From Candidatus Omnitrophota bacterium (GTDB lineage: Bacteria; Omnitrophota; Gorgyraeia; Gygaellales; Profunditerraquicolaceae), in assembly GCA_028718245.1 (NCBI GenBank), contig JAQUME010000003.1, positions 1 through 44,357 of the forward strand: a stretch of DNA of 44,357 bases, in the 5' to 3' direction. Numbering within the stretch: position 1 is the stretch's first letter; every line of letters starts with the position of its first letter. The notes below the pieces were generated by a model, which was not told the origin of the DNA, ran no database searches, and saw only the letters and a list, made by a program, of their open reading frames with translations. Made by a program: the position numbers and the translations under genes. Positions 20,586 to 44,357 of this stretch are shown here, one piece after another.

Positions 20586-20593
20586 ACTTAAGG

Positions 20594-22201: not shown

Positions 22202-22210
22202 CCGTTTCCC

Positions 22211-24373: not shown

Positions 24374-24738
24374 AGGTAGTCAACAAAACCCGCCAGACAA
24401 TCCTGGCTGAAAATGCGGCTATTGCCAAAACTCCCTTAAAAAGGATGATCGGCCTGTTAAACCGTAAGACTTTTGAGCCGGGTGAAGCCTTGATAATCAG
24501 GCCCTGTAATTCTATCCACACCTGTTTTATGCGCTTCCCCATAGACGTGGCCTTTGTTGATCCCAATAACCGGGTTACAAAAATGATCCACAATATGCGG
24601 CCGTTTAGAATAAGCGGCATCTATCTGAACGCGCTATTTTGCATCGAACTACCCGCAGGAACCCTGGAAAAAACCTCCACCCATTCAGGCGATCTAATAG
24701 AAGGGACGTCCTTGAATCCAAAGCAGGGACGTTTCTGA
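24370..24738 (+). CDS. DUF192-family protein whose C-terminus is supplied by the adjacent repeat element
   Basis: LIIRPCNSIHTCFMRFPIDVAFVD...ISGIYLNALFCIELPAGTLEKTSTHSGDLIE; final GTSLNPKQGRF is encoded in the inverted repeat. Confidence 0.8.
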   Translation: MKVVNKTRQTILAENAAIAKTPLKRMIGLLNRKTFEPGEALIIRPCNSIHTCFMRFPIDVAFVDPNNRVTKMIHNMRPFRISGIYLNALFCIELPAGTLEKTSTHSGDLIEGTSLNPKQGRF

Positions 24739-24768
24739 AGCTAATCGGAAGGGTGTCCCCCTTAGCTT
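24690..24768 (+). repeat. Left inverted repeat of RAYT element
   Basis: atctaatagaagggacgtccttgaatccaaagcagggacgtttctgaagctaatcggaagggtgtccccctta. Confidence 0.85.
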
Positions 24769-25244
24769 AAATCGGGGATATCTAATAAACTGTTTTCAAT
24801 ATAACCCATTCTTTCCTTCCAGCTATTCCAGGGATAATCAAAAGGAGATTTATTCATTTTCGCTCTTATTGGATTCATCTCTACATATTCTATGCAATCC
24901 AGCAGGTATTTATTTTTCTGTATGAGCATACTTTTATATCTTCCCTGCCAAAGATGACCAACTTTGTTGTATTTTTTATTGAACCACATTGTATAAGTTT
25001 GGTTTAAGCCCTGCATAATCTTCCCCAACTTAACTGGTCTCCCAAGAGTTACTATTAAATGGACATGGTTGGGCATTAGGCAATACCCGTAAAGCTTAAA
25101 GCCGTATTTTCTTTTATAATGCTTTATTAATTTAAAATATTTAACAAAATCCTCATTTTCGATAAATGTGGTTTGTTTTTGGTTCCCCCGTGTCATTATA
25201 TGGTAGCACGCATTTTCTAGAGTTAGTCTTGCTGCTCTTGCCAT
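24762..25244 (-). CDS. REP-associated tyrosine transposase-like protein (Y1_Tnp, IS200-like)
   Basis: RLTLENACYHIMTRGNQKQTTF, YCLMPNHVHLIV HUH motif, HLWQGRYKS, YVEMNPIRAKM. Confidence 0.92.
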   Translation of the reverse strand: MARAARLTLENACYHIMTRGNQKQTTFIENEDFVKYFKLIKHYKRKYGFKLYGYCLMPNHVHLIVTLGRPVKLGKIMQGLNQTYTMWFNKKYNKVGHLWQGRYKSMLIQKNKYLLDCIEYVEMNPIRAKMNKSPFDYPWNSWKERMGYIENSLLDIPDLS

Positions 25245-25433
25245 ATCTTATCACCCCCAATCTAAGAGCAATAGACGCAAGAGGAGTTTAAATCTAACAA
25301 GGTCTATTCAACAGGCGTATCTTGAGCATAATTACTAAGCTACCTGTGATATTTAAAAACTGCTTGTTTTTATCAGATTGGACAATAAATAAAGATTATT
25401 CCTTGAGATAACAAAGTAAACGTAGTAAAACAT

Positions 25434-25513
25434 TAAGGGGGGGGACATCCTTCCGATTAGCTTCAGAAACGTCCCTGCTTTGGATTCGAGAACGTCCCTA
25501 TTTATTAGATAAC
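25434..25513 (-). repeat. Right inverted repeat of RAYT element
   Basis: Reverse complement reads atctaataaatagggacgttctcgaatccaaagcagggacgtttctgaagctaatcggaaggatgtcccccc. Confidence 0.85.
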
Positions 25514-25531
25514 TGTCCAAACTGATTGATA

Positions 25532-25560
25532 TTGACATTGGTTTAATCTTGTAGTATACT
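25532..25560 (+). promoter_or_regulatory. Consensus sigma70-type promoter upstream of transposase-like gene
   Basis: TTGACA - 17 bp - TATACT; flanked by TGTCCAAACTG (25514) and TGTCCAATCTG (25577). Confidence 0.7.
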
Positions 25561-25595
25561 TTAATTGGCCCAAGAATGTCCAATCTGGAGGAAGC

Positions 25596-27257
25596 ATGGG
25601 AGTAATACATAAGTTAAGACCGGAAATAAAACAATCTATAATAGATGAAAAAAAAGCCAATCCTGCGATCAGTTGCCGGAGCTTGAGCTATTTGATCCTG
25701 CAAAGATTTAATATAGAGGTCTCCAAATCAAGTATTAATTCAGTATTCAAAGAAGCTGGCTTGAGCATGGCCGCGGCCAGGGTCCCTAAGAAAGAGATTA
25801 TAAAACCAGAGCCGGTTAAACCGGAAATCCCCATACCGGAGGCAGTCAAAGCGCCTGAGCCTTTGCCGTCGGAGAAGGCGCCTGAAAAACCGCCGGTGGA
25901 ATCGCCAAAGCTCCAGCCAGGGCCCCGCACCGACGAGCTCCCGCTACCGCCGGAGATGCCCTGTACAGGGGCAATTTTTCTGAAAGCTGCCGATTTTCTG
26001 CTCGGAGGAAGCCGGCGTGTCGCCGAATTGATCAAGAACAGCCTTAATATTGATAATGAGCAAATATGGTCCAAAACCGAGGCTCTGATCTATCTCCCGC
26101 TTTTTCAAGCACCCCAAGAAAGCCGGATAGGCGCATTACAAGCATTGGTCGGCAGAGGCATTCCTTCCGAAGATATAATCTCCTATCATAATGAATTACA
26201 ATCGGTTACGACATTAGGCAACGGTATTTCCCAGATCATCGGGGATGTATCTAAAGAGGCCCGCTGCATAAAAGTTGATTTCTCAACTAAAGACAGCTTG
26301 TATATTGATGGCCAGATGTATAGTGTCTGGTCTACCCCCCATACGCCGTATGATTTCTCCACAACTATATATAACGCAAATAGTTACATAAACAGGTACT
26401 TCAATAATGATTCGCCTTTGATCTTATTTACTGCGCCTGGTTATAACGCGCCCACCAAGGAGTTTTTCGGCTTTATCTCGGGGTTAGAATCACAAACCAA
26501 GAATATCACCGGCCTGAAGATCTACGGGAACAAATATGAGGAACTGGATTCGATCACCTTAGAGGGGGTCAAAAAGCGTTTTTTTGTTTTCGCGATGTGG
26601 CCCTGGCAGTTTGTAAATTATCGCAAGGTAGTAAAAATCGGGGAATTCAAACCGTTCTATTTCGAACCGTTGGAATTAAATCTCTATCTGGCGGATATAG
26701 AGATTGAATTAATGCAACCTGATGCTAAACAAAGACTTACGCTGAAAGGCTGCGCTTTGAAAACCCTGCTTTCGGAGAAGACCCGGGTGGTTATCTTAAG
26801 TAATCTTAGCCTTGAAGCGGCCCAGCCTGAGAACCTGGCAAATATTTACCTGAACCGCTGGCCCAATTTAGGGGAAACATTCCAGGATTACAGCCGCAAG
26901 ATCGAGCTCTTCACTTACATGGGCTCATCCCAGCGCTTTTTCTCATTGGAGAACCTAAAAACCGACCAAGCTCCCCTCGGAACCAAAACTATATTAACCG
27001 ATTACTTAAGGGTTTTGGACCTCTATGTGCGCTGGCATTTCCTGCCTGAAGGTTTTAAAGAAAAAGATTTCCCGACGATAAAAGAGCAGTTTTACGGCCT
27101 TAATGCCGTTGTCAAGAGGGGGAATGGCCGCACTATGGTGAAGTTCAGCCCTCCCCAGGGATATCTATTCCAGAAGGAACTGGAATATGCCTGCCGCAGG
27201 ATAAACGAGCAGGAAATCATGTTCGCGGACAACACCCGCCTTTGGTGCCTGCCTTAG
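25596..27257 (+). CDS. Transposase-like protein: N-terminal HTH, Pro-rich linker, putative DDE/RNase-H-like C-terminal region
   Basis: HTH-like ISCRSLSYLILQRFNIEVSKSSINSVFKEAG; linker PEPVKPEIPIPEAVKAPEPLPSEKAPEKPP; IYLNRWPNLGETFQDYSRKIEL resembles IS4/IS1634-type C-terminal motif. Confidence 0.5.
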   Translation: MGVIHKLRPEIKQSIIDEKKANPAISCRSLSYLILQRFNIEVSKSSINSVFKEAGLSMAAARVPKKEIIKPEPVKPEIPIPEAVKAPEPLPSEKAPEKPPVESPKLQPGPRTDELPLPPEMPCTGAIFLKAADFLLGGSRRVAELIKNSLNIDNEQIWSKTEALIYLPLFQAPQESRIGALQALVGRGIPSEDIISYHNELQSVTTLGNGISQIIGDVSKEARCIKVDFSTKDSLYIDGQMYSVWSTPHTPYDFSTTIYNANSYINRYFNNDSPLILFTAPGYNAPTKEFFGFISGLESQTKNITGLKIYGNKYEELDSITLEGVKKRFFVFAMWPWQFVNYRKVVKIGEFKPFYFEPLELNLYLADIEIELMQPDAKQRLTLKGCALKTLLSEKTRVVILSNLSLEAAQPENLANIYLNRWPNLGETFQDYSRKIELFTYMGSSQRFFSLENLKTDQAPLGTKTILTDYLRVLDLYVRWHFLPEGFKEKDFPTIKEQFYGLNAVVKRGNGRTMVKFSPPQGYLFQKELEYACRRINEQEIMFADNTRLWCLP

Positions 27258-27288
27258 AAAACGCTTTCCCGAAGGCGCTTAAGTATTA

Positions 27289-27317
27289 TTGACATATCTA
27301 ATAATAGGTGTTATATT
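27289..27317 (+). promoter_or_regulatory. Consensus promoter of pilin array leader
   Basis: TTGACA - 17 bp - TATATT. Confidence 0.7.
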
Positions 27318-27332
27318 TAAGATGCGTTTAAA

Positions 27333-27463
27333 GGCGGCAGCGAAAAGCAATTCCGCTATGGAGGTAGCCGGATGCGCAAAGCCACGGGACGATGTTCGCC
27401 ACAATTTATGTTTCTTAATTTTCACGCTCAGGGTCAGGCGGGAACATTATCCGGGTTAGCTAA
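27333..27463 (+). ncRNA. GEMM/c-di-GMP-I-like riboswitch candidate (divergent)
   Basis: GCGAAAAGCAA..., hairpin TCCGCTA/TAGCcGGA, then gCGCAAAGCCACGGGaC, the hallmark GEMM segment; lies between promoter and terminator upstream of pilins. Confidence 0.55.
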
Positions 27464-27464
27464 A

Positions 27465-27507
27465 GCCGAAGAGTCTTTTAATGGACGTTAAGACTTCGGT
27501 TTTTTTG
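27465..27507 (+). terminator. Intrinsic terminator at the end of the leader (expression platform candidate)
   Basis: CCGAAGagTCTT...AAGACTTCGG followed by TTTTTTT. Confidence 0.8.
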
Positions 27508-27610
27508 TTTTTAGGCCGTTAAATAGTTTTAGAAAGTATTTATCAACTAGGCACACCGCGCTTATCGGATTTGCGCGGGTGTTGTCCTTACGGACAAGGA
27601 GGTGAGAAAA

Positions 27611-27784
27611 ATGTTAAGGAGCAGGAAAGCGCAGAGTACTCTTGAATACATCATCATCTTCACGGCGGTAGTAGGAGCGATACTCTTGGCAGCCAATACC
27701 ATCATTAAGCCAAAGATGAACAGTATGCTTGAGCACGTAGCCGGTGAAGCGGAGACCGCGGTCAAACACGTCAGTTTCCAATAA
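27611..27784 (+). CDS. Flp/TadE-like pilin (pilin 1)
   Basis: AAGGAGG RBS; MLRSRKAQSTLEYIIIFTAVVGAILLAANTIIKPKMNSML class III pilin-like N-terminus. Confidence 0.8.
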   Translation: MLRSRKAQSTLEYIIIFTAVVGAILLAANTIIKPKMNSMLEHVAGEAETAVKHVSFQ

Positions 27785-27811
27785 AGCGATCTTTTTAAGG
27801 AGGTGAGAAAA

Positions 27812-28150
27812 ATGTTAAGGCGCACAAAAGCACAAAGCACGGCAGAGTATGTGATCGTGCTGGGCCTGATAGTAGCGGCAGTTATAGCTATGCAGACCTA
27901 TGTTAAAAGGGGCTTTCAGGGCAGGATCAAGGACGCGGTAGATTATACCGGCCAGAGCGGACAAAGCGGAGAAGCCGTTTCTTTCACAACCAAGCAATAT
28001 GAACCCTATTATCTGGAATCCCAGTTTGCCAGCGAACGCAGCTCCACTGATACCGAAGAATTGGCAGAAGGCGGCTCGGTATCCAGGGCATCCGAAGAGA
28101 CAAGCACCAGGAGCGGCTCTCAGACGATATTGGAGCCGAAGACAGAATAA
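27812..28150 (+). CDS. Flp-like pilin with Ser/Thr-rich tail (pilin 2)
   Basis: AAGGAGG RBS; KAQSTAEYVIVLGLIVAAVIAMQTYVKRGFQGRIKDAVD. Confidence 0.8.
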   Translation: MLRRTKAQSTAEYVIVLGLIVAAVIAMQTYVKRGFQGRIKDAVDYTGQSGQSGEAVSFTTKQYEPYYLESQFASERSSTDTEELAEGGSVSRASEETSTRSGSQTILEPKTE

Positions 28151-28176
28151 AATATAATGAGGAGGAGGTGAGTTGA

Positions 28177-28497
28177 ATGTTTAATAAATTTAACCGGAAT
28201 AAGGCGCAGACAACCTTGGAGTACGCCATCTTGATCGGGGTGATCGTTGCCGGGCTTATCGCGATGCAGGTTTACCTGAAAAGAGGTTACCAGGGCAAAT
28301 TAAAGGAGAGCGCCGACAGCATGGGCCAGCAGTTCTCTCCGGGATATACCACAAGTAAATACACGATCACCAATACTTCTACGTCTACCGAGGAGCTTAA
28401 AGATAAGGTAACCGTATCTACGATCGGAAGCCAGGAGAGCCAAAAAACAGGCACGGAAGATGTCGCTGCTTCCGATAAAGAGTTCTGGTGGAAGTAA
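28177..28497 (+). CDS. Flp-like pilin with Ser/Thr-rich tail (pilin 3)
   Basis: GGAGGAGG RBS; KAQTTLEYAILIGVIVAGLIAMQVYLKRGYQGKLKESAD. Confidence 0.8.
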   Translation: MFNKFNRNKAQTTLEYAILIGVIVAGLIAMQVYLKRGYQGKLKESADSMGQQFSPGYTTSKYTITNTSTSTEELKDKVTVSTIGSQESQKTGTEDVAASDKEFWWK

Positions 28498-28529
28498 GAG
28501 CCGAGAGGGTAAATTTGGAGGTTTTGTAA

Positions 28530-29381
28530 ATGCCGATAAAAATATTCTTATTTTTAGTGGTTTTCGCCGGGGTCTTTTATCTTGCCAGCCTGGCATATCC
28601 TTTTTTTGAGGCGCTGATGGACCGCTGGCAGAGAAAGAGGATGGATAAAATTACCCCGAAACTGGACCGGATGTTCCTGGATATTCCTTTAGAGAAGCTG
28701 CTGCTGATCGATGTGCTTTCCCCCCTGGCCAGCGGGTTGCTGGTTTTTTTCATCAGCCGCAATATCTGGGCTGCTACGGCAGGGGCAGTTGTGGGGTTGG
28801 CTTTCCCTATCCTGATCATCAAACGGCTTGAGGCCATGCGCAGGCAAAAATTCGCCGCACAGCTTGTTGACGGGCTGATGATCTTATCCAGCTCTCTTAA
28901 GGCGGGATTAAGCCTCTTGCAGTCATTTGAGGAGTTGGTGCAGGAGATGCCCAATCCCATCAGCCAGGAGTTCGGCCTTGTCATCCGCCAGATGCAGATG
29001 GGCGTCTCTCTCGAGGAGGCGATAACCAAGCTGAAAGTGCGCATGCGGCTGGATGAGCTGGATATGGTCGTAACCGCGATGCTGGTGGCCAGGGAGACCG
29101 GCGGAGACCTTACGCAGACATTCTCCCGGGTAATCTACACTATCCAGGAGCGGAACAAGCTTATCGGCAGGGTCAAGGCGCTTTGCGTGCAGGCGAACAT
29201 GCAGGGGGTAATTATGTCGCTATTGCCCATTTTATTCGGGATATTCGTATATAAGGTTAATCCCGGTTTCTTCGATGTGTTCCTTAAGGATAATTTTGGA
29301 AGAGGGCTTATGCTTTACGCTATCATCTCAGAGATACTCGGCATTATTTTTATACGTAAATTGAGTAAGGTTGATATATAA
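28530..29381 (+). CDS. tadB: TadB-like pilus assembly membrane protein (T2SSF)
   Basis: LVDGLMILSSSLKAGLSLLQSFEELVQEMPNPISQEFGLVIRQMQMGVSLEEAI; multi-TM. Confidence 0.9.
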   Translation: MPIKIFLFLVVFAGVFYLASLAYPFFEALMDRWQRKRMDKITPKLDRMFLDIPLEKLLLIDVLSPLASGLLVFFISRNIWAATAGAVVGLAFPILIIKRLEAMRRQKFAAQLVDGLMILSSSLKAGLSLLQSFEELVQEMPNPISQEFGLVIRQMQMGVSLEEAITKLKVRMRLDELDMVVTAMLVARETGGDLTQTFSRVIYTIQERNKLIGRVKALCVQANMQGVIMSLLPILFGIFVYKVNPGFFDVFLKDNFGRGLMLYAIISEILGIIFIRKLSKVDI

Positions 29382-29394
29382 AAGGAGTATATAA

Positions 29395-30303
29395 ATGGAA
29401 TTAATCGTGGTGGTTTTACTTTTAGCGGTCAGCGTTTACCTCCTTATCCTGCAGTTCGGCTCCAAGGCATTCGGCTTGGAGAAGATGCGGCTGCCTGCCC
29501 AGGTATTTGACAGTAAAAAGGTAGAGATGGAGTTGAGCCAGGATAAGTATACGGTAAAGCCGGATAATACCTGGCTTCCCATTACTGCCAGGTTCAAAGA
29601 TTTTGAGAAGCGGATCCCCTTCTCCACCGAGGGGATAAGAAGGAGATTGATCAAGGCCGGCTTGCCGATGGGGGTATTGGAATTCCTGGCTTTTAAGGTA
29701 TTGGCGATTATTTTTGTCCCGGCTGTGGCTTTAATATTCCTTAGCGGTAATTTACCTAAGAATATGGTTTTTGCCGTTTCTCTGCTGGTGGGTTTCTTTA
29801 TCCCGGAGATGTGGCTGAATCAAAAGATAGGCAAGAGGCTGCACAGTATACGGCGCGACCTGCCCAACATAATTGACCTGTTGAACCTTTGCGTAAGCGG
29901 AGGCATGGACTTTATGCTGGCGGTAAACCGCGTGGTCAAGGATTTAAAACCCTGTGACCTGACCCGGGAACTGGGAGAGGTTTATCGTGAGACGCAGGTC
30001 GGTAAATCCAGGCGCGAGGCATTGAAGAATTTCGGCTGGCGGGTGGATATGCCTGAAGTGCATTCTTTCGTGCGCACGCTGATACAGGCCGACCGCATGG
30101 GCACGCCCATGTCGGAGGCATTGAATGTGCAGGCCGAGGAGATGAGAGTAAGGAGATTCCAGATGGGCGAGTCAATGGCATTGAAGGCGCCGATCAAGCT
30201 GCTCTTTCCCTTGTTTGCCTTCATTCTGCCGGTAGTTATGATCATTGTAGGAGGCCCGATAATCCTGCAGTTCTCGCGCGGGGGGATCAATTTCGGGTTC
30301 TAA
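29395..30303 (+). CDS. tadC: TadC-like pilus assembly membrane protein (T2SSF)
   Basis: IRRDLPNIIDLLNLCVSGGMDFMLAVNRVV...EVHSFVRTLIQADRMGTPMSEALNVQAEEMRVRRFQMGESMALKAPIKLLFPLFAFILPVVMIIV. Confidence 0.9.
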   Translation: MELIVVVLLLAVSVYLLILQFGSKAFGLEKMRLPAQVFDSKKVEMELSQDKYTVKPDNTWLPITARFKDFEKRIPFSTEGIRRRLIKAGLPMGVLEFLAFKVLAIIFVPAVALIFLSGNLPKNMVFAVSLLVGFFIPEMWLNQKIGKRLHSIRRDLPNIIDLLNLCVSGGMDFMLAVNRVVKDLKPCDLTRELGEVYRETQVGKSRREALKNFGWRVDMPEVHSFVRTLIQADRMGTPMSEALNVQAEEMRVRRFQMGESMALKAPIKLLFPLFAFILPVVMIIVGGPIILQFSRGGINFGF

Positions 30304-30992: not shown

Positions 30993-31385
30993 ATGAAACG
31001 GGGAAGCTCGTTGATGGAGTATATGATAGTTCTGGGGATAATTTCCGCGGTCCTCTGGGGAATGAATGTTTATGTTAAGCGAGGGGTGCAGGGAAAGCTC
31101 AAAGACCTTACGGATTCATTTATAGGTAAGGAGCAGGAGACGGATATTTCGCCTACTGCCGAAACTGCCAGCAGCGCCAAGAGTGGATTTAGTTCAACCG
31201 CGGAGACCCAGGCATCCCTGGGCGGCGGCTGGAGTGTTTCAAGTTCGGACAAGATGGAGTATGAGGCGGAAAGCAAAATAACCGATACTGACGTGCCTTA
31301 TACATCAAGTGATCCTGTGCCTGCTGAAGAAGGGTATAGCGTTCCCGAACCGGCTAAGCCGCCGAAAGAAGGATCAGGCGGCTAA
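30993..31385 (+). CDS. Flp-like pilin with low-complexity acidic tail (pilin 7)
   Basis: MKRGSSLMEYMIVLGIISAVLWGMNVYVKRGVQGKLKDLTDSF. Confidence 0.78.
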   Translation: MKRGSSLMEYMIVLGIISAVLWGMNVYVKRGVQGKLKDLTDSFIGKEQETDISPTAETASSAKSGFSSTAETQASLGGGWSVSSSDKMEYEAESKITDTDVPYTSSDPVPAEEGYSVPEPAKPPKEGSGG

Positions 31386-32425: not shown

Positions 32426-33796
32426 ATGTTTACATACTTTCACGATCACAAAAATAAATACAACAAGGGCCAGCTTGCCCCCATCTATATCCTTATCCTG
32501 GTGATCGTGATCATTATGGCTATGGTCACGGTTAATTTATCCAAGGTAGCGATGGTCAAGACCGATACCTCAAACTCTGCCGATGCCGGGGCCATTGCTA
32601 CGGGCGCGATCATGGCAAATGCTTTTAACAGCGCGGCTGTGCAAAACAGCCAGATGATAACCACGTATTGGTCAGCCTATGCTTCGATAGCCGTTATGTT
32701 TTCATATGCTTTTGTTAAGCTGACTATGGCTTATACCTCTGCATCTTTTGCATTGGCTCGGGCAACATTTGCGTTGGGGTTGCAACCACCTTGTCAAACC
32801 TCCTGCGGAGCTTACGCGATTATGGAGGCAACCTACCTTCCTTTGACTTCAGCACTCTTAAATATAGCTTCGGTTATTACAACTATTTATGCTATCGGAA
32901 TCGCCATTCTTAGCGCCAGTGTGGTCCAGCATTATTATTATGCTTCTATCAGGAAGATGGCGATAAAAGGCAGAAGCTCTTCTATAAGGAATGGCCACGG
33001 GTTTGTTTTCTCCAACAGCGGCACAGGCCAAAAACTTAAGGCAGGAAGCCCTCCTGCCGATGCGGGGGATTCTTTGAAGAGGAACGGCTACAGGGACTCT
33101 TATGTTAATTTCCTGGATGGTATAGGAGATGACGAATATTATAATTATTCCTGGAAGGATGGGGAAGACAGGTCGCATTCCGTGGATTCAAGGGTACATA
33201 CTAATAAGGTAGAGGATTTTGAATTAACAGTGGCGGTTTTGCCCTCTTTTGCAGAGACAGCAGCTCTGGCTGCTGCCAAATATCTTCTTGGAACAGTCGT
33301 GACCAATTTAACTTTAGTGAAGGCTGACTATATAGCCGCGGAAGGTGAGTTTGCTTTGGCATGCGAGAATTTTCTATGTTGTAACCCCACTCCTGCAGGA
33401 GCTGCTTGTTGTATTGCCTGCGACGCTCTCGCATTAAAGGGGAAGGGGTGGTTAATCCCCGCCATAGCGAATAATTCTGCCGACCTTATGATAATGACGG
33501 GAGTCTTCGCTTTGCTAGTCGGCGCATTGGCAGGTTTATTGCCCGGCCCGACAATTACCGCCAGCGGGGAATGGGATGATGCCATGTTTTTTGACTGCTG
33601 GGTAAATGATATCAAGCATGACCACCTGGTGCGGGTTGATACAAAGCAAACTCATGCGGGAGGGGACCTCGGGCTTTGGAAGAGCAGTTACCCCGATACT
33701 GCCAGCTACGCGGTGGTTGATTTTTCGGGAAGAGGAACTATATTCCCTCCTAACCCAAGATATGGTTCAGACATAGTTGAGGTAGACAGTAACTAA
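32426..33796 (+). CDS. TadG-like protein
   Basis: NKGQLAPIYILILVIVIIMAMVTVNLSKVAMVKTDTSNSADAGAIATGAIMANAFN. Confidence 0.7.
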   Translation: MFTYFHDHKNKYNKGQLAPIYILILVIVIIMAMVTVNLSKVAMVKTDTSNSADAGAIATGAIMANAFNSAAVQNSQMITTYWSAYASIAVMFSYAFVKLTMAYTSASFALARATFALGLQPPCQTSCGAYAIMEATYLPLTSALLNIASVITTIYAIGIAILSASVVQHYYYASIRKMAIKGRSSSIRNGHGFVFSNSGTGQKLKAGSPPADAGDSLKRNGYRDSYVNFLDGIGDDEYYNYSWKDGEDRSHSVDSRVHTNKVEDFELTVAVLPSFAETAALAAAKYLLGTVVTNLTLVKADYIAAEGEFALACENFLCCNPTPAGAACCIACDALALKGKGWLIPAIANNSADLMIMTGVFALLVGALAGLLPGPTITASGEWDDAMFFDCWVNDIKHDHLVRVDTKQTHAGGDLGLWKSSYPDTASYAVVDFSGRGTIFPPNPRYGSDIVEVDSN

Positions 33797-33807: not shown

Positions 33808-34710
33808 ATGTTTTTCAGGCTTAAAGTTGCGCAATTATTCGGCCTCATTCTTTTAGTGATGACCATAACCGCGCATCCTCTTTATTCTGCCTGGTGGGAT
33901 AGGAATACCATACCGCTTCCTTCGGGAACAGAGGAGGTATTCCAGGAGACAAGAAATATTTCGGGCACAGAGTTTGTGCTTAAGTATTATACCAATTCCC
34001 AGGATGCCAAAGTCATAAGTGATTTCTTCCGTTCAAAGCTTACTGCTTTGGATTGGAAGGAAAAAGAATTGTTAAAGGAAATGGCCCAGATACCCGGCTT
34101 AAAGGTTCCCGCCTCTGTAGAGGATATGCTGGCTTCGAATTCTATCTTTGAAAAAGGGGAGGAGACAGTTATGATAAACTTCCTTCCCCGGGGAGCGGTC
34201 CAGGACGGAAAGACCAGGTTTACTGTTGCACGGGGGAACACAGAGGCCCAAAAAAAGCCTGAGGAGGATGATTTTATACCCAGATTATCGGGCAAGCCCA
34301 AGCTTGATATTGCCCCGGTTTATCCTGGGGCAGCTTTGATCTCCCTGTCGGAGAATACCGGTTTTATGCGGGCAACCTATTTTTCAAAAGATGATATTGA
34401 TAAAGTAGGCGAGTTTTATAAGAGCAAAATGCTTAATTACGGCTGGTCCCTTGCAGAAGAGAAACCGCTTCAGAAGCTGGATTCAGGGGAGGTTGACCTC
34501 TCCAGCTTGTGCCCCGATTGCCCTAAGGATAAGAATATCCAGCAGGCAATCAAGCCTGTGGATATGGAGGTGCAAGAGCTTAATTTCTCCAACGAAGCGG
34601 GGGATGTATGTATTGTAGCCCTTGGAGTTACCGGCCCGAAAGAGGGGGTTGGAGACAAATTAAAGAATACAACCACTATTATGGTGCAATATGAAAAAGC
34701 CGGGAAATAG
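33808..34710 (+). CDS. Secreted protein of unknown function with two related domains
   Basis: Signal peptide LFGLILLVMTITAHPLYSA; repeated pattern VISDFFRSKLTALDWKEKE and KVGEFYKSKMLNYGWSLAEE. Confidence 0.65.
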   Translation: MFFRLKVAQLFGLILLVMTITAHPLYSAWWDRNTIPLPSGTEEVFQETRNISGTEFVLKYYTNSQDAKVISDFFRSKLTALDWKEKELLKEMAQIPGLKVPASVEDMLASNSIFEKGEETVMINFLPRGAVQDGKTRFTVARGNTEAQKKPEEDDFIPRLSGKPKLDIAPVYPGAALISLSENTGFMRATYFSKDDIDKVGEFYKSKMLNYGWSLAEEKPLQKLDSGEVDLSSLCPDCPKDKNIQQAIKPVDMEVQELNFSNEAGDVCIVALGVTGPKEGVGDKLKNTTTIMVQYEKAGK

Positions 34711-35590
34711 AGCGCAAACTTTTACTGAATACGCTATCCTTATAGCCGTAGTGGCGGCTGTCCTCTTTGGAATGAGGATATACATGGAGAGGGCTGTTCA
34801 GCAAAAATTCCGGGAGAGCGCGGATGTATTCGGCGAAGGGGAGCAATACGCCAAAGGGATTACCCAGGCTGCCTATAAAGATGATCCGGGCGCTCAACCG
34901 GTAACCCCTCCTTCCGGTAAGGATATCTGTCCTGGGGTTTTAAGTAAGGCAGAGGCCTTAGAGAATGAGATAGCGGATTTAAATGACCGCATAGCCTCAT
35001 TTGAGCAATCCAAGCGTGATTTAAATAAGTCGGCAGAGGATTTGAATACGCAGATCCCGGTATTAAGAGAACAGGCACGGCAGCTAAGGATACTTGCAGA
35101 CGGTTATGAGGCCCAGGCCGACGCAAAGGACGCCCAGGCTTTGGCTAAAAGGAACGAGGCAAAAGCTAAGAACGCCCAGGCGGATGGTAAGCAGAAAGAG
35201 GTTGATAACTACAAAAAGGATTTCCCGTTGTGTTTTACCTTTGGGTGCGGCACAAGCTGTGAAGAGGGGGACAATTGTTGCTGCGTGCTTAATGCCGTAG
35301 CAGCGTTAGAGGCTGAGATAGCCAGTTTGCGCAACGAAGCTGCTTTATTGAACGCCCAGGCAGCGGTATTGGAGGATGAAGCAAGAGCCCTGCATGCGAA
35401 AGCAGCCTCTTTGTACAAAGCAGCGGATGATGCCGACAGCGCAGCTAATGACCTGGTAGAAACACAGATCCCCAGCTTAGAAGACCAGGTTAAATCATTT
35501 GAAGAAGATATTGAAAAAGCCAAGAATGAGATTAAGCCAAAAGAGGAGCAAATAGAAAACTTTAAGAAGAATTATCCCAGTTGCTTCTAA
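34691..35590 (+). CDS. Pilin-like N-terminus fused to duplicated Cys-capped coiled coil
   Basis: NRAQTFTEYAILIAVVAAVLFGMRIYMERAVQQKFRESAD then long Ala/Glu/Lys/Asp heptad-like region; DNYKKDFPLCF and ENFKKNYPSCF repeats. Confidence 0.75.
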   Translation: MKKPGNRAQTFTEYAILIAVVAAVLFGMRIYMERAVQQKFRESADVFGEGEQYAKGITQAAYKDDPGAQPVTPPSGKDICPGVLSKAEALENEIADLNDRIASFEQSKRDLNKSAEDLNTQIPVLREQARQLRILADGYEAQADAKDAQALAKRNEAKAKNAQADGKQKEVDNYKKDFPLCFTFGCGTSCEEGDNCCCVLNAVAALEAEIASLRNEAALLNAQAAVLEDEARALHAKAASLYKAADDADSAANDLVETQIPSLEDQVKSFEEDIEKAKNEIKPKEEQIENFKKNYPSCF

Positions 35591-35601: not shown

Positions 35602-36675
35602 ATGTTAAGTAAACCAAGAGGATTGACATTCAGGCTTATTTCAGCTTCCTTGATATTTTTCTTCGCGGTTTCTTTTACCTTTCCTAAAGAATCACTGGCT
35701 TATAGAAGCAGAGATGGCGGAGGGGAAATCGCGGAATTTGATTTCGGCAAATGGGCGTTAGGTACCGCGGCAGGCGTGGTCTCTTCTACTTTAGGCAGTG
35801 CTATTATTTCAGGGGTAGGAGGTTCTTTGGGTTGGACACCAGGCGGTAGTTTTATGGAGTCTCTCTCCAGCTTAAAAGGAGCTGATACCTGGGCAAGCAA
35901 TTTTGTAAACAGCACGGCGGTAGGCCAGGTGCAGAACGCGATAGGAATGATGGGTAACTATTATGGGTGGGACCCGGGTTCTACCATTTTTCTAAGCTCG
36001 GTAGCAGGAGGGGTTGTAGGAGGAGGGTTAGCTCCAGGACATTTTGGCAGCTCGCTTGGCAGCGGTGTAGGTGTTTCCCAGAGTTTCAACGGCTCGTTAA
36101 ACTGGCTTAAAGGTGTGGGCATAGGCCTTGTTGAGGGAAGTGTTGAAGGCGCCATACTTATGAGCGCGGCGGATAAAAAAGGTCGTATTGATCCCATAAT
36201 AGGTAATGTAGCGAATTTAACCGGAAGCCTTGTTACAGGCGGCCTGGTAGGGGGCCTCACGGGTCCTACAGGAGAATTCAGTTTTGGGAACATGGGAGAT
36301 TTTAATCTTGCTAAGGCAGGCCAGGAAGCCATGCGCGTCACATTAAGAAGTATCCCCTCAGCCGGGCTTAGCATGGGGGTCCAGTCCATTACCAGAAGCA
36401 TGGATAAACAGGATGCTTATATCATCAAAAATGCCTTTTCAGGGGCTTATTATATGATAAATGTCCCCACAGGCTATTTAGTGGATAGTAAGATTGTGCC
36501 CTCTGTGTTTGGGGAGAGGTCGCGGGTTCGTATTAAAAACACAGAATTACCATCACCGCTATTAAAAGAAACTTTAAATCCAAGTTCCAAGATTCCTTCA
36601 GTGTCAAATTATAGCCAGTCAAATCCACCAGGATTTTCTCTTGAGAAAAGAATTGAAGATATAAGCACTAGATAA
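35602..36675 (+). CDS. Secreted Gly-rich protein of unknown function
   Basis: AAGGAGAAG RBS before ATG 35602; signal-like LISASLIFFFAVSFTFPKESLA; GVVGGGLAPGHFGSSLGSGVGV and related Gly-rich stretches. Confidence 0.65.
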   Translation: MLSKPRGLTFRLISASLIFFFAVSFTFPKESLAYRSRDGGGEIAEFDFGKWALGTAAGVVSSTLGSAIISGVGGSLGWTPGGSFMESLSSLKGADTWASNFVNSTAVGQVQNAIGMMGNYYGWDPGSTIFLSSVAGGVVGGGLAPGHFGSSLGSGVGVSQSFNGSLNWLKGVGIGLVEGSVEGAILMSAADKKGRIDPIIGNVANLTGSLVTGGLVGGLTGPTGEFSFGNMGDFNLAKAGQEAMRVTLRSIPSAGLSMGVQSITRSMDKQDAYIIKNAFSGAYYMINVPTGYLVDSKIVPSVFGERSRVRIKNTELPSPLLKETLNPSSKIPSVSNYSQSNPPGFSLEKRIEDISTR

Positions 36676-37299: not shown

Positions 37300-40200
37300 A
37301 TGACAATGCATAAAAACCCTGAACCAAAAAACCAGGCAGAATCAAAACCAGGCCCGCAGGAGAAAACACGTTTTCAATCCAGCTTCAAGGCCTGGATCAG
37401 AATCGTAGCTTTCATAGTAGTTGCGGTCTTTCTTCCGGAGCAGGCAGCTCAAGCCGTAGAATATGATTGGCGCGTGCTTTGGAGCAAACCCGGAACACTC
37501 ACCTCATACTCCCCGAACTTAATAAAAGACCCGCGCCAGTTAGACATAGCAGTAGCAGTCAGGAACATCCTCAAAGACATTTCAGGCAAACCCGTAACCG
37601 CAATAAAGATCTCCCCCACTTTAACCATCAATTTAGAAAAGCCGCTAAACATCTCCAAGCAAAGGATAGAAGAGATCTACAATTGGCTGGCGGGAAGGCC
37701 CTGCGGCGCAAAGGCGCTTTATGATTTCTTAGCTTATAAAGGCGTTGCCGCGCAGGAGCAGGATATCGCGGTTATGGCCTTGACCACCGACATTTTAAGC
37801 GGGGTCCTTAAGCCGGAAGGCAACCCGAAGATCATCAAAAGCTCCCTTTATGCCTTATCCCGCGCCTCTGAATTCTTCGGCGCCAAGCTTTACCCGGTAA
37901 AATTTGATTTAAAGCAGGGCCTGACACCGAAAGGTGCTGTCCCCGCGTTACCCTTCATCGCTCATTTCAAAGCCGAACACTACATCCTGGTAACCCGCAT
38001 AACCGATGACAGGGTTTATTACGCGGATGAGCACAAAGAGGAGTTTCTGCCCAAGGATAAATTCTTAGATAAATTCAGCGGATACGCGCTGGTTTCCTCG
38101 GTCCCGGAGCAGGCGCAACTGCTCTCTGATAAAGAAGCGCAAGGAATAAAGGGCGCTAATGAATATGGCTATCAGGAAGATACGCCTGAATGGAATGGCG
38201 ATTGGGGTAATTATGACTATGGTTTTGATGACGGTTCTTATGAAGCAGCAATCGCGCAGGATCCTTATTATAACAGTGCAGCTTTCACGAATTACAACAT
38301 ACCGGATACCTATGGTTATAACTCTAACTTCAATCCTCCCTCTATTTCAAATTACTCCAATTACAATGTAAATTACAACGACGCGATAGCAATAGCCCAA
38401 AACGGAGGGACGATTTCGATTCCCACCCCAGTAGGCTCTACCGTCTTCTATAATGACTCAGGTATGGTTAAGATGGAGGTTTACAATGATGACCTGCGTA
38501 CAGTCAACGTAAGCCAGGTGACCGACAATTTAACGATCCCGCTGGCACAAGGAACCTGGGATAACAACAATAATTTTAGTATGCATGATATCGGGGCAGC
38601 AGGCGGGAATACTTTTGCCGCGTCAAATTTTCAAAATCCGCTTATGAACAATACCGTTAACTCAAATATAGCGTTTGATCCCAACGGCCCCACGATCGCA
38701 AGGGTTAAAAACGGGGAGACCATCGGCCTTTCCACTCCTACGGGATCTTTAGTGCTTTATCAGGATAATGGGATCACCAAGATGGAGAATTATAATGATG
38801 ACCTACACACAGTCAGTGTAAGCGCCGTGACCGACAACTTGACGATCCCGCAGGCCGGGAATATGGGAAATATTATTGAAGACGGAAGCAATAAGTGGGC
38901 ATGGAAAGTGGTTAATAAGGACATATATGTAGCCCAATTGGATGGAGGGGGCAACATCGGTGAGTTTAATCCTATGGGTAGAAGGACATTGTGGGGGCTT
39001 TTTTCGGGAGGGTTCTATCAGGATGTTTCCGGACCATTTAATCCGTCAATAGGCGATGAAGCTGCGCAAAAAATATTATCTACCGTATATGGTCCGAATG
39101 TTTCAAGCCGGCTTGATGATGTTGATTTCTCCGTAGGTATTTCAGGCCGTGAAGGGCAGGTTTATTTACACACATCCGGCGCGCCAAATCCCCATTATAC
39201 CGTTGTTTCCTCAAGTGATAAATTTGACGCGTTAAGTTTTGCCGTTAATAATCCTAATGGAGTCAGCGGAAGAGAATATTTCAATCCCGCAAGCGGCCAT
39301 ATTTTAGCAGAAACTATCGGAAGGGGTTTGTTTGATTCTCCAAATAGCACTTTAAGCGGTATTGCCCCCATGGGAGAGGCCATAGGGCAGTCGATGTATG
39401 GCCAGTTTACCACAACAATTGATTGGAATAACGGATATGTATCTTTTGCCGGCACAAAACCTGACGCGCTGTTGCAGGTAGTAAACGGCGCTCCGCAAAT
39501 GACTGCCGCGATAAATTCGGCGTGGAGCAGAGACAACAATGGGAAACTTTTAGAAATAGCCGGTCCTAATGGGACAAGCTTAAATAATGTCTTCTTAACT
39601 CCGGCAAAGGCATTCTTTGTTTCAGGTGGAGGCGGACCCGCAAAATCTTCTAAAGAGTTATTTGATGGGGTCTATAGTTTTGATGCCCAGAGTTTTAGGG
39701 GCCAGGGTCTGGATGCGATAGGCATTGATCCGTCGAGAGGTGGATCTTTTAATTTTATGGGCACCCGGCCGCACGCTACTTTAGGGGACTATGTGGAAAA
39801 TATCACAGGCTCTCCTACTCTTTACATGGTGCAAACAGATAGGGGGCTGAAAGAGCGCGTGCTTGATAACGCCCAATGGATGAAAATCAACAGAGGAGAC
39901 GGAAATTTAGTTATTGGCGCAGGAGCCAATCAGCCGGCATCACTTAGATTTGACGGTGTGGCGCAGGGAGAAACAATTAGCTTTAGAGAATCAGCGTCTT
40001 TTCTCGGAGGATATAAAGAAATTCTCCATAAAAATGTTTCACCCGTTCAAGAGTTAGTAGCTGACTATGGGCTGGGCAGAAGCTCAGCAAAGTTTACAGA
40101 CGGTTCGCATGACTTGATTGGAAGTGATGGAACGGTAAAGAGTTTTTCTTCCTACGGGGAATTAATAAACTTTTTAGATAACGGCCAGGTAGCGGCCCGT

Positions 40201-43200
40201 TCATTCTTTACAGAGAAGCCGGAAAGGGATGGCCCTAAAGATTCCGGTAAACAATCAGAACGGATATTAAACCCTGTTTTTGCAAACGCGCATATCAAGG
40301 TTGCAAACGCGAGAGGAGAAAAAGGAATATATTTTACTGCTACAGGCCTGGAATGGGGGTCTTTATTGAAATATGGCAGTACAGAATTTGAGCCGGAAAT
40401 AGGCCAAGGCACCCGTTTTTCCAGTATTAATCCAGATGAGAAAGTGAGGATAGGCAATAGTGATTGGCAGAATCTTTCCCAAAACCAGATCCGGGGAGGA
40501 GGTATTAGCCATGTCGATAATACTGGTTTTATTATTAACGAATCCGGTAAATCTCTGCCCATTATAAGAAACTACGAGGTAAACAATAAAATAGTGACTC
40601 TGGGAATTACAGATGGCGGCTCGAATTCTACAAGCAGCGCGCAAATCAACGGCATCTTAAATGGAAAAGTTGTTTCATTTGTTAGTGCCGCGGATCCCAA
40701 AAAAATTCAGTTAAGCGCTGATAAGTTAATATATGACGAAACAGGGGTGGTGATAGGGCGTCAACTTATAGATCCTCTGGTCCGCGAAAAAAGCAATATT
40801 AAGATTACAACCGGGACTCAAGCCCTGGATAAACTGTATTACAACGGCAATGCCTTGATGATCAGCGGAACCAACGGTTATATAGATGCTGTTGGGTTTA
40901 AGCCAGTAGAACGCAATCCAAATTCTCCTGCTTTGACGGAAAAAGAAGGCCCTGTAGAGTCAAATTTAAAGGTGACAAATATCCCGGATGGCTTGAGATT
41001 CAGTTCCATAGGACAAGACCCGACAGGGGCTCCTCTTGTTGCAGAATTTGAATTGGATTGGGCAAGAAGCTCATTACGCTCTACCTGGCAAGAAGCAGGG
41101 GCGCAGAACTGGATAACTGAACAAACCGCTATATTTGGAGAAACCTGGCAGCCGCACCCAGGCATAGAAACCGGACTTGTTTATTTTCAGGAATATCCGG
41201 GCAAAGATGATAAGGTTTCTGTTTTACCCGCGGGCGGCGCAGCCGAATTCACTACAGATCAATATCTAGAGGGGTATAGAATCAAGGGGACATATTCCGG
41301 AGCAAAGACATTAGACAGGACTGCTTTGGCCGAGAGATTAACAGGGGCGATTCAAACACAATTAGGGATATTTCAAAAAGAAGCAGCTAAGGCAAGCGCT
41401 AACGGCCAAGACCCGTTAGCTTCTTTAGAAAAGCTCCAGGCAGATAAATCAAGAGGCATCGTATTCCAAAAAGAGGAATTACAAGATCTTATAAAAGGCG
41501 ATAAAACCATAGCCAGTATCGCTGCCGCGGCTTTTGAAAGAGAGAATGCGGGAAGATTAGAGCAAGGTATCAGCCAGAATTTTAAAATGTCAGCCACAAT
41601 GAGTTTGGCAGCCGGTTTCTACCCGTGGGTAAGCAGGGATGGAAGCATATACGGTGACAGCGTTGACATAAGAAGCGGCGTGAGCCTTGAGGGAGTCAGC
41701 TCTGCCGATTCTACCGTGATCGTTACCACTCATGATGGACGTAAAATAGATCTATCCCAGTCCGGCATGCCGGTCAGCTACAGCAGCGGACAATTCAGGG
41801 TTAATCCTGCGGATGGGCTTAACTGGTTTTCTTTCCCGCTTAATACCGGCGGCGGCGAGGCGCCAAAACGCGAAGGAAATGTAACCGTAAAAGCCACTGA
41901 GTCCCGGTTAGTAGATAATTATTCTTCCTCCAACGGCATACCTGTAAATGCCAGCCTGCCGCGGTATATAGGCAATCCTTTGCTTTATGGCCAGGACAAG
42001 GTGATCAACCTAAATCTGGGAGCAGCGCAGCCGAATGTGATGAGTTTTAAGGGATATGATTTTGAAGGAAAGGTTCCTTTTTATGTCGGCGGGGAATTGG
42101 TAGGAGTTGAGGGCAGATTAACATTTTATGAGGATGGCGAGAAGAAAGGCCAGCCCAATTTAAGCCAAATCAAGAGCGTAGAATATCAATATAATCAGCC
42201 GGGATTTTTAATTGAAAGAAGAGAAGGCGCCAGCCCTGTTTTTATTCCTGCTGTGCATCTGGCAGGAAGCACTTATACAAACATGAAATTGGGGGATGAA
42301 AACCCCAGGTTTGTCCCTGCCGGAGCAAATCCCGATATAAACAACTATCTTAAGGTAAGCGAACAGGCCTTTTTCTTCAAAAACGGCTTACAAATAGCGG
42401 ATGTCATTAATAAAAATGTTTATGATGCAAATTCAGGCCTATTTAAAATAAGCATTGATACCAAAGGTGCCCCGATCGACTTTTTCAGCCGAAATGAAGT
42501 TCCGCCTACCCAGCGCCAGGAGCCTAACTTTGATCAGTTTATGAAAGAATCCATTATGACAGCACTGGGCGCACAAATGTTATCCTTCGAAGGCAGCAGG
42601 TTACAATTAGCGGATTTAGTGACTCCTTCGCTGTTAGCGAGCCGGGTAGATGAACAGTACCATACATCTATGAATATACCAAACGCCTCGCAATACCGTG
42701 TAAGCGGATATGATAAAGACGGCAGGGTTTTGGGCTTTGCTTATACCGGCAGCGGTAAACTTGGTTTTGGCGCCGGATTCGGCAACGACCTTATTCCTTT
42801 AGCAGGCACACCCGGTTCGCATTTTAAAGTTGACAGCGGAGAGTTCCAGGTATACAGGGATAAGCCATTTATTTATGCCGGGAAAGAAATTTCAGGAGGA
42901 CTGGAAGAGAATTTTATCGGCCAGCGTTCTTTAACTTATTCCGGCAGCCAGCCGTACAATGTATATATAGATCCTGAATATGGGACCTTTGCCAGCGCCG
43001 GAACGCGTTACAGGGAAGAGCGCACCTTCAATGGAGAAGACATTGGTAATAATAAAATTTTTACCGGGATAAGCGTGGTAGAAGGCAAGCATAAGACATA
43101 CTTCGAGAGAGAGAATACAAACTGGTTGAAGCATGGAATACGAAATGAAACAGGCCTTGATTCAAGGACCTCTGAACTGGTAAACAACGGGAAACCTACC

Positions 43201-44357
43201 CTTACGCCCTTTAGCCGTAAAGAATATATAAGCTTAGAAAGGGAGGGGAATAAGATATCTTCAGATAGTTTTCTTGAAGGGATTGTCCGTTTAATGCCCG
43301 AGAAAGGAAGAGTGGATTTCGTAAATTATGCCGTTGATCATCTGTATTTGTTCCAGAATAAATATCTGGTAGGCAAAGGCAATTACTGGATGCCTCATTC
43401 GACATTTGAGTCATATGGCGGCGGAAGCGGGAGTGAGGTTAAGGCAGGCCCCAGCGATGCGTTTCAACGTCCGAATCAAGCAGGAGGGGTTACCTATACC
43501 GGAGACCGGTTAGCTTTTAATATAGATTGGCAGGGCACATCATTATCGCTGCCAACAGCCTATTTTTGGGCGCCTGGTTCAACTATAAGGTTAATGGCCG
43601 GAGACAGATTTGTCAGCAACATTGAGATTAACGACGCCAAGGGTTTGATCACATTCCAAAAAGAATCAAGCATAGTTGATGTAAGAGGAGATTCAACCAT
43701 ATTTTATGCGCAGCAAACATCTCCGGACGGCAAAACAGTAACAGTGCCTTTTTATGAATCCGGGCACTGGTCGAATGGGACCTCAACAGATGGCGTTTAC
43801 TCCCAAAGTCCCGCCCCTAAAGGTAATCCCCAAGCCGACCTCATTAAATATATTTACCAGGGAGAAATGAGCGGCCCGCTTGCGGTTAAGTTTACTCAAG
43901 ATGCCGTGGCTTACGGGATGATACCTCAAGAGGAAAGTTTCCGCTATCAGGGCTATCAGAAGCTTGTGAATAAGACAACCTTTGTTCCCGACGCGGAGAA
44001 AGGGTTTATTACCGGAAAAAGCAGAATTGTGCCTGATCTTGAGCAAAATCCGAACTCTTTAACTTTAGAAGCCAAGATACGCGGCGGCGGTTTTCGCCAA
44101 GGATGGAATTATATATATGGTAAAGAAAATAGCATTGTGGGTTGGGGTCCCATTATCACAGACGGAAAGATTGGCAATGTGGGTCCCAAATCTCCGCTGG
44201 GCCTGGCTTTATTAACCCGAGGGCTGGAAATCTCAGGGGTTAGAAAAGGAAGCAGTGGAGAAGCCGATACCTATAAAGTAGACGCGCAGACATTAGCTTA
44301 TAATTTTGGGAATAAAGCTATAAATTTTGACAACCATCTTTTGCAGTTTAACGGGGT
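37300..44357 (+). CDS. Giant secreted/surface protein with N-terminal C39-peptidase-like domain; 3' end outside window (start 37300 or 37306)
   Basis: Frame 1 spot-checked open in many lines up to the window end; N-terminal TM/signal AWIRIVAFIVVAVFLPEQAAQA; RPCGAKALYDFLAYKG...EHYILVTRITDDRVYYADEH C39-like; no + strand ORF of track covers it because it lacks an in-window stop. Confidence 0.88.
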   Translation, partial: MTMHKNPEPKNQAESKPGPQEKTRFQSSFKAWIRIVAFIVVAVFLPEQAAQAVEYDWRVLWSKPGTLTSYSPNLIKDPRQLDIAVAVRNILKDISGKPVTAIKISPTLTINLEKPLNISKQRIEEIYNWLAGRPCGAKALYDFLAYKGVAAQEQDIAVMALTTDILSGVLKPEGNPKIIKSSLYALSRASEFFGAKLYPVKFDLKQGLTPKGAVPALPFIAHFKAEHYILVTRITDDRVYYADEHKEEFLPKDKFLDKFSGYALVSSVPEQAQLLSDKEAQGIKGANEYGYQEDTPEWNGDWGNYDYGFDDGSYEAAIAQDPYYNSAAFTNYNIPDTYGYNSNFNPPSISNYSNYNVNYNDAIAIAQNGGTISIPTPVGSTVFYNDSGMVKMEVYNDDLRTVNVSQVTDNLTIPLAQGTWDNNNNFSMHDIGAAGGNTFAASNFQNPLMNNTVNSNIAFDPNGPTIARVKNGETIGLSTPTGSLVLYQDNGITKMENYNDDLHTVSVSAVTDNLTIPQAGNMGNIIEDGSNKWAWKVVNKDIYVAQLDGGGNIGEFNPMGRRTLWGLFSGGFYQDVSGPFNPSIGDEAAQKILSTVYGPNVSSRLDDVDFSVGISGREGQVYLHTSGAPNPHYTVVSSSDKFDALSFAVNNPNGVSGREYFNPASGHILAETIGRGLFDSPNSTLSGIAPMGEAIGQSMYGQFTTTIDWNNGYVSFAGTKPDALLQVVNGAPQMTAAINSAWSRDNNGKLLEIAGPNGTSLNNVFLTPAKAFFVSGGGGPAKSSKELFDGVYSFDAQSFRGQGLDAIGIDPSRGGSFNFMGTRPHATLGDYVENITGSPTLYMVQTDRGLKERVLDNAQWMKINRGDGNLVIGAGANQPASLRFDGVAQGETISFRESASFLGGYKEILHKNVSPVQELVADYGLGRSSAKFTDGSHDLIGSDGTVKSFSSYGELINFLDNGQVAARSFFTEKPERDGPKDSGKQSERILNPVFANAHIKVANARGEKGIYFTATGLEWGSLLKYGSTEFEPEIGQGTRFSSINPDEKVRIGNSDWQNLSQNQIRGGGISHVDNTGFIINESGKSLPIIRNYEVNNKIVTLGITDGGSNSTSSAQINGILNGKVVSFVSAADPKKIQLSADKLIYDETGVVIGRQLIDPLVREKSNIKITTGTQALDKLYYNGNALMISGTNGYIDAVGFKPVERNPNSPALTEKEGPVESNLKVTNIPDGLRFSSIGQDPTGAPLVAEFELDWARSSLRSTWQEAGAQNWITEQTAIFGETWQPHPGIETGLVYFQEYPGKDDKVSVLPAGGAAEFTTDQYLEGYRIKGTYSGAKTLDRTALAERLTGAIQTQLGIFQKEAAKASANGQDPLASLEKLQADKSRGIVFQKEELQDLIKGDKTIASIAAAAFERENAGRLEQGISQNFKMSATMSLAAGFYPWVSRDGSIYGDSVDIRSGVSLEGVSSADSTVIVTTHDGRKIDLSQSGMPVSYSSGQFRVNPADGLNWFSFPLNTGGGEAPKREGNVTVKATESRLVDNYSSSNGIPVNASLPRYIGNPLLYGQDKVINLNLGAAQPNVMSFKGYDFEGKVPFYVGGELVGVEGRLTFYEDGEKKGQPNLSQIKSVEYQYNQPGFLIERREGASPVFIPAVHLAGSTYTNMKLGDENPRFVPAGANPDINNYLKVSEQAFFFKNGLQIADVINKNVYDANSGLFKISIDTKGAPIDFFSRNEVPPTQRQEPNFDQFMKESIMTALGAQMLSFEGSRLQLADLVTPSLLASRVDEQYHTSMNIPNASQYRVSGYDKDGRVLGFAYTGSGKLGFGAGFGNDLIPLAGTPGSHFKVDSGEFQVYRDKPFIYAGKEISGGLEENFIGQRSLTYSGSQPYNVYIDPEYGTFASAGTRYREERTFNGEDIGNNKIFTGISVVEGKHKTYFERENTNWLKHGIRNETGLDSRTSELVNNGKPTLTPFSRKEYISLEREGNKISSDSFLEGIVRLMPEKGRVDFVNYAVDHLYLFQNKYLVGKGNYWMPHSTFESYGGGSGSEVKAGPSDAFQRPNQAGGVTYTGDRLAFNIDWQGTSLSLPTAYFWAPGSTIRLMAGDRFVSNIEINDAKGLITFQKESSIVDVRGDSTIFYAQQTSPDGKTVTVPFYESGHWSNGTSTDGVYSQSPAPKGNPQADLIKYIYQGEMSGPLAVKFTQDAVAYGMIPQEESFRYQGYQKLVNKTTFVPDAEKGFITGKSRIVPDLEQNPNSLTLEAKIRGGGFRQGWNYIYGKENSIVGWGPIITDGKIGNVGPKSPLGLALLTRGLEISGVRKGSSGEADTYKVDAQTLAYNFGNKAINFDNHLLQFNG

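Follow-up and report, generated by a model that had tools for sequence, protein, structure and literature searches.

A predicted cysteine-bracketed helical hairpin on a minor Tad pilin from one family of Omnitrophota

Introduction

CpaL from Caulobacter crescentus, which combines a minor pilin-like part with a vWA module, is predicted to be located at the tip of the Tad pilus (PMC12607857, PMC13170226). In the Omnitrophota, Tad systems have been linked to predation or parasitism, and they are thought to attach to prey or hosts (PMC10066038).

The protein studied here is encoded at positions 34691-35590 of the window, that is, the whole stretch of 44,357 nucleotides analysed, which comes from a Candidatus Omnitrophota bacterium with a genome of 1.2 Mb. 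It resembles CpaL in that a minor pilin-like N-terminus is followed by a large C-terminal module, encoded within a Tad system, and this module is plausibly borne at the tip. However, the head is a short Flp-like helix with no predicted β-sheet, and the module, known from sequence and prediction, is a predicted Cys-bracketed helical hairpin instead of a vWA or β-rich domain. The listed Pfam matches of the protein include no vWA domain and its model is all-helical, so that it lacks the vWA/MIDAS signature of CpaL-type proteins. With the Flp/Tad pilins it shares the leader, the context of the cleavage site (A/QxxxEY, the slash marking the cut), the hydrophobic helix, and the location in a Tad operon, but Flp pilins end soon after the helix, whereas this protein adds about 220 residues.

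No published description of such a module was found in the literature and profile libraries searched. It is a real and conserved C-terminal module on Tad pilus proteins from one Omnitrophota family, apparently undescribed, which agrees with the initial annotation on both points that could have overturned it, as a coiled coil is predicted and the searches returned no known case of the architecture. Our leading explanation, held with modest confidence, is that the protein is a minor Flp-type pilin with a rigid, antiparallel, Cys-bracketed hairpin, placed at or near the tip of the Tad pilus, where it would act as a contact arm or spacer.

The Tad locus

The proposal that the protein belongs to a Tad operon is supported by its surroundings, where the Tad core, a TadG-like protein, and several pilins are encoded:

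19710-30303, plus strand: Tad core, with CpaB/RcpC, secretin, TadZ-TadA fusion, two pilins, TadB, and TadC (assigned by Pfam)
30993-31385, plus strand: pilin, with a Cys-poor helical tail in the orthologues of five TadG-tailed genomes
32426-33796, plus strand: TadG-like protein (match to Pfam Tad, PF13400, above cut-off), lacking the hairpin tail in this genome
33808-34710, plus strand: exported-like protein of unassigned family, conserved between TadG and the pilin, with a 20-nt overlap with the start of the pilin gene
34691-35590, plus strand: Flp-type minor pilin with a predicted Cys-bracketed helical hairpin
35602-36675, plus strand: Gly-rich, signal-peptide-like protein downstream of the pilin, syntenic in relatives

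The order of the last four genes is kept among their orthologues in relatives. The contig also codes for several class III pilins and TadE-like proteins near the Tad core, and a single Peptidase_A24 gene, for the prepilin peptidase, is found elsewhere in the same genome. PF13400, which would mark the 34691-35590 protein itself as TadG-like, is not among its listed matches.

Several other features of this region were recorded. The TadZ/CpaE-like ParA domain and the TadA/CpaF T2SSE ATPase are fused in a single 720-aa ORF (22211-24373), and the secretin (20594-22201) ends in a TonB_C domain, a fusion that is unusual for a Tad secretin. The segment 27803-31385 holds, on both sides of TadBC, no fewer than four distinct genes for class III pilins besides the one at 34691-35590, and an IS200-like Y1 transposase gene (24762-25244, minus strand) is inserted between the TadA fusion and the pilins. 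Further downstream, an ORF of more than 2350 aa (37300-44355) runs past the contig end and resembles a C39 peptidase in a region close to its N-terminus. The TadE2-like pilin is matched by a 584-aa ORF with 53 Cys in another Omnitrophota Tad locus (L053, 5288-7039, genome G086).

The pilin and its parts

The gene and the parts of its product, delimited from the sequence and its homologues, are as follows:

34691-35590, plus strand: whole gene, 299 aa
34691-34714, plus strand: class III leader MKKPGNRA, with a predicted cut before Q9 (A/QTFTEY; E at +5 and Y at +6)
34715-34831, plus strand: pilin head helix, residues 9-47 (AlphaFold helix 7-47)
34811-34864, plus strand: head signature, residues 41-58, RESADVFGEGEQYAKGIT, with invariant columns across 14 homologues
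34928-35233, plus strand: arm 1, C80 to C181, span 101, cap FPLCF (predicted helix 81-177; C80 invariant in 14 of 14)
35231-35284, plus strand: tip loop C181-C198 with six Cys (predicted loop 185-194 between the long helices)
35282-35584, plus strand: arm 2, C198 to C298, span 100, C-terminal cap YPSCF (predicted helix 195-294)

The initial annotation is right about the ORF and its coordinates, and also about the pilin-like head and the two helical stretches, each headed by Cys and closed by a cap (NYKKDFPLCF and NFKKNYPSCF). On the contrary, the middle segment that it named the hinge, CFTFGCGTSCEEGDNCCC, holds six Cys in 18 residues (181, 186, 190, 196, 197, and 198) and not seven; the remaining two of the eight Cys of the protein are C80 and C298.

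The assignment to the class III/Flp pilins is upheld by the leader RA/QTFTEY (of the G/A-x4-E-Y type), the hydrophobic stretch that follows it, and the invariance of Y14, as well as by the presence of a Tad locus (secretin, CpaB, TadA, TadB, and TadC) and a genomic prepilin peptidase. The Flp profile PF04021 is not among the best 25 of the 32 Pfam matches of the protein, and the sister pilin 28177 matches it weakly (E 0.0017, below cut-off). Comparison with the orthologues of G010 and G017 yielded pN values of 0.17-0.26 and pS values of 0.40-0.80, and pN being below pS indicates that the gene is under purifying selection.

Distribution of the module

The same head followed by a Cys-bracketed helical part occurs in 14 genomes of one family, including the genome studied here. 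Ten columns of the head and module start are invariant among these homologues, among them R41, D45, G48, G50, Q52, Y53, T58, and C80, while E13 is present in most; all of them share a near-terminal (Y/F/N)PxCF-like cap. In 384 genomes sampled across the phylum, the matches listed from outside the family all stop within about the first 110 profile positions. The family profile also matches named loci, and each of these belongs to an Omnitrophota MAG, Candidatus Kappaea among them. The terminal motif [FYN][PA]xC[FYWVMS], at most eight residues from the C-terminus, was found in 16 of 435 ORFs of more than 80 aa from 20 related loci (in this pilin 12 times and in the TadG-like protein four times), and in none of 402 ORFs from 20 further Tad loci of the same family.

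The statement that the coiled coil occurs twice holds for the 34691-35590 pilin, as well as for the homologues of G007 and G084, but relatives carry one (for instance, G063, G065, G036, G051, G059, and G052), two, or four (G010 and G017) Cys-bracketed segments, and the module is also present on TadG. In further genomes with the same type of locus (G035, G148, and G037), the pilin consists of a bare head of 63-68 aa.

These bare pilins bear on the idea that the protein is a periplasmic primer or scaffold for assembly of the pilus machine that is never displayed, a role that we regard as somewhat unlikely. Minor pilins have been proposed to prime the assembly of Tad and T4P systems (PMC13170226), and the gene overlaps that of an exported partner, itself downstream of TadG. 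Nevertheless, the bare pilins do without any arm, and a rod of 15 nm, with variable length and a Cys-rich tip, would be an unusual need for a primer.

Matched arms and predicted structure

When the two halves are aligned with their ends, they score 90, compared to 5.5 +/- 10.0 for shuffles (maximum 40.5 of 1000). The helical cores alone score 47.5, which is weakly above plain shuffles (21.2 +/- 9.5) and within the range of heptad-preserving shuffles (33.3 +/- 10.7). A simple internal duplication read from the core sequence was consequently rejected, as the similarity of the halves does not go beyond those shuffles, and the claim of duplication rests on the Cys and cap brackets together with the homologues, given that the cores alone do not prove it.

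The Cys-to-Cys spans of paired arms differ by no more than one residue in all multi-unit homologues (101/100, 98/98, 87/87, and a nested 101/44/45/100). No similarity is detectable between the two arms of G084 (Z -1.0), and yet their spans are 98/98. In addition, units match by position across species (unit 2 of the 34691-35590 pilin against unit 2 of G007, Z 10.2; against unit 1, Z 5.9), which suggests that the arm lengths changed together after an old duplication. A hairpin of antiparallel arms, with Cys at its base and at its tip, requires paired spans to be equal in this way.

Two AlphaFold models were obtained (7 and 4 rows, with pTM 0.58 and 0.55). For the 34691-35590 pilin, a short loop separates the predicted helices 81-177 and 195-294, for which pLDDT is mostly 95-99, while the linker 42-71 is poorly defined; the structure prediction suggested in the initial annotation thus returned a long helical coiled coil. 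The other model, of a one-segment homologue, shows a short hairpin (helices 78-131 and 145-186). The hydrophobic-register test of arm 1 against reversed arm 2 gave no signal and is uninformative. A Foldseek search of the PDB gave no significant match for the 34691-35590 model (best E 4.9e-3), but the best target TM-scores corresponded to long antiparallel coiled coils, namely the Bacillus subtilis Smc arm (5nnv_A, TMt 0.58) and the RipA N-domain (6ewy, TMt 0.53). The one-segment model resembles PspA (4whe), with a TMt of 0.73 and an rmsd of 1.7 over 109 columns, as well as the colicin E2 receptor-binding domain (TMt 0.68). The likeness to these four structures is confined to the shape of the antiparallel helical hairpin, the E-values being non-significant, and we know of no such Cys clamps in any of them.

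Named coiled-coil families (Filament, tropomyosin, SMC, Rad50, etc.) were rejected, as their listed Pfam/NCBIfam matches fall below cut-offs and look compositional, and the PDB sequence matches look compositional likewise. A viral origin was also discarded, as the BFVD matches are generic coiled coils.

The two repeats are best explained in these models as the outward and returning arms of a single antiparallel hairpin. Hence, of the duplicated coiled coil first proposed, the two Cys-bracketed helical repeats stand, but they would be the two arms of one structure; with antiparallel arms, the Cys-rich hinge becomes a distal tip loop from which the chain returns to the base.

An unlikely alternative arrangement is that of two hairpins side by side, in which units 80-181 and 198-298 would each fold back at an inner IPxL, with their own Cys pair, to form a four-helix bundle with a Cys-rich linker. 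Each unit could indeed be its own hairpin, as the units of two-segment proteins resemble one-segment modules in sequence (G007_2 against G065, Z 10.1) and one of those modules, of similar length (span 113) and with the same cap, is folded on itself by AlphaFold; moreover, a Pro is found in a hydrophobic-P-x-L motif inside the units. However, the predicted helices are continuous through this Pro (pLDDT about 95-97), and separate hairpins would leave unexplained both the joint length change (87/87, 98/98, 101/100) and the inner 44/45 pair.

Cysteines at the base and the tip

The tip loop of the 34691-35590 pilin reads C-x4-C-x3-C-x5-CCC, of which G010 and G017 conserve C-x3-C-x(5-7)-CCC, while G007 (C-x8-C) and G084 (C-x10-C) have two tip Cys, 9 or 11 residues apart. 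The number of Cys in the mature protein is even in 14 of 14 homologues, which suggests disulfide pairing. Exported proteins at large have no such bias in a crude set of 47 exported-like ORFs from the same genome, false positives included (18 of 35 even), and the exported-like proteins of this set contain less Cys than the cytosolic-like ones.

The disulfide bracing suggested at first is putative. Even counts and matched spans fit pairing, but known disulfide-forming enzymes were not found: the profiles for VKOR, Thioredoxin_4, DsbB, and DsbA (PF07884, PF13462, PF02600, and PF01323) gave no match above cut-off in 16 genomes, of which seven have a completeness of 90% or more, while the same profiles were positive in control genomes. 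Dsb-dependent disulfides were rejected on these grounds. The disulfides of the 34691-35590 pilin are candidate bonds, and the Cys chemistry may involve spontaneous extracellular oxidation, another oxidase, or metal binding.

The last option, taken further, would be a Cys-rich tip that binds Zn or Fe-S, joins two molecules in the manner of the Rad50 zinc hook, and forms no disulfides, which we judge improbable. The predicted antiparallel coiled coil carries Cys at its tip, as that of Rad50 does, with six of them in the loop, and the lack of matches to disulfide-forming enzymes in the 16 genomes fits this idea. Contrary to Rad50, the pilin has neither a CXXC tip hook nor an ATPase, and holds Cys also at the base. 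In addition, G007 and G084 have two tip Cys only, and single-segment forms without tip Cys keep the base pair, which a metal site at the tip does not explain.

The module on TadG

In five genomes, the neighbouring TadG-like protein ends in the same module, and a Cys-less helical version is found in a sixth (G074). The TadG tails of G063, G083, G036, and G065 are bracketed by exactly two Cys, while that of G037 has three. The pilin modules and the TadG tails align end to end by hhalign with a score of 85.5, whereas shuffles score 8-10 and a control with the coiled-coil tails of another pilin, which lack Cys, scores 45.0. Several deep branches of the TadG tree are left open, so that it gives no order of gain or loss for the tail.

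The 30993-type pilin has a helical tail in five of the six genomes with a TadG tail and in none of the eight without it, figures that are uncorrected for relatedness. Its tailed, Cys-poor orthologues are located at 3864-4583 in L041, 8602-9459 in L043, 3749-4534 in L044, 15860-16648 in L040, and 6267-7025 in L047. These helical tails are consistent with an intermolecular parallel coiled coil, a dimer or trimer of the pilin with itself or with TadG and the 30993 pilin in a composite stalk, but such a stalk is very unlikely given that matched arm lengths and Cys at both ends fit intramolecular pairing and that the TadG of this locus (32426-33796) has no tail.

Discussion

In the contact-arm explanation, the prepilin peptidase would cut the head, which would then be incorporated into the Tad filament, most likely alongside the TadE-like and TadG-like proteins at the tip or close to it. 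Arm 1 (80-181) would run outward from the pilus head to the Cys-rich loop 181-198, the far tip about 15 nm off (100 residues x 0.15 nm). The chain would return through arm 2 (198-298), so that C298 would end beside C80. Both ends of the arms would thus hold Cys (the base pair C80/C298 and the tip pair C181/C198, with four more in the tip loop), and the hairpin could hold its tip loop out to prey or to a partner cell in an adhesive role. In relatives, the rod would be shorter (one segment), the tip loop would hold a second hairpin (44/45), or TadG would carry the module as well.

The tip-arm role is proposed by analogy with CpaL, and on this comparison the hairpin would most likely serve as a rigid spacer or contact arm, placed at the pilus tip or close to it; of the possibilities raised originally, a tip, stalk or spacer is likewise the most plausible. 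The module is distinct from that of CpaL, and it probably functions in the way of an accessory domain that a minor pilin bears at the tip.

A broader proposal, which we put forward only tentatively, is that of a family-specific module, a Cys-clamped hairpin that would be exchanged between a minor pilin and TadG, lengthened by insertion of a hairpin in the tip loop, and bonded through its Cys without known Dsb/VKOR enzymes, and that would set the reach of the contact arm in predatory or symbiotic Omnitrophota. The host of the 34691-35590 pilin is probably one of these, a tiny predatory or symbiotic bacterium.

To our knowledge, it is not known what touches the other cell in the Tad pili of Omnitrophota. 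The 34691-35590 pilin provides a concrete candidate for a contact arm, with its equal arms, its Cys pairs, a second carrier in TadG, and a length that varies from species to species, and it raises the question of how extracellular Cys would be paired without recognised disulfide-forming enzymes. In relatives the rod is lengthened or joined to another pilus protein, which points to a contact arm of modular build with which these bacteria would grip other cells.
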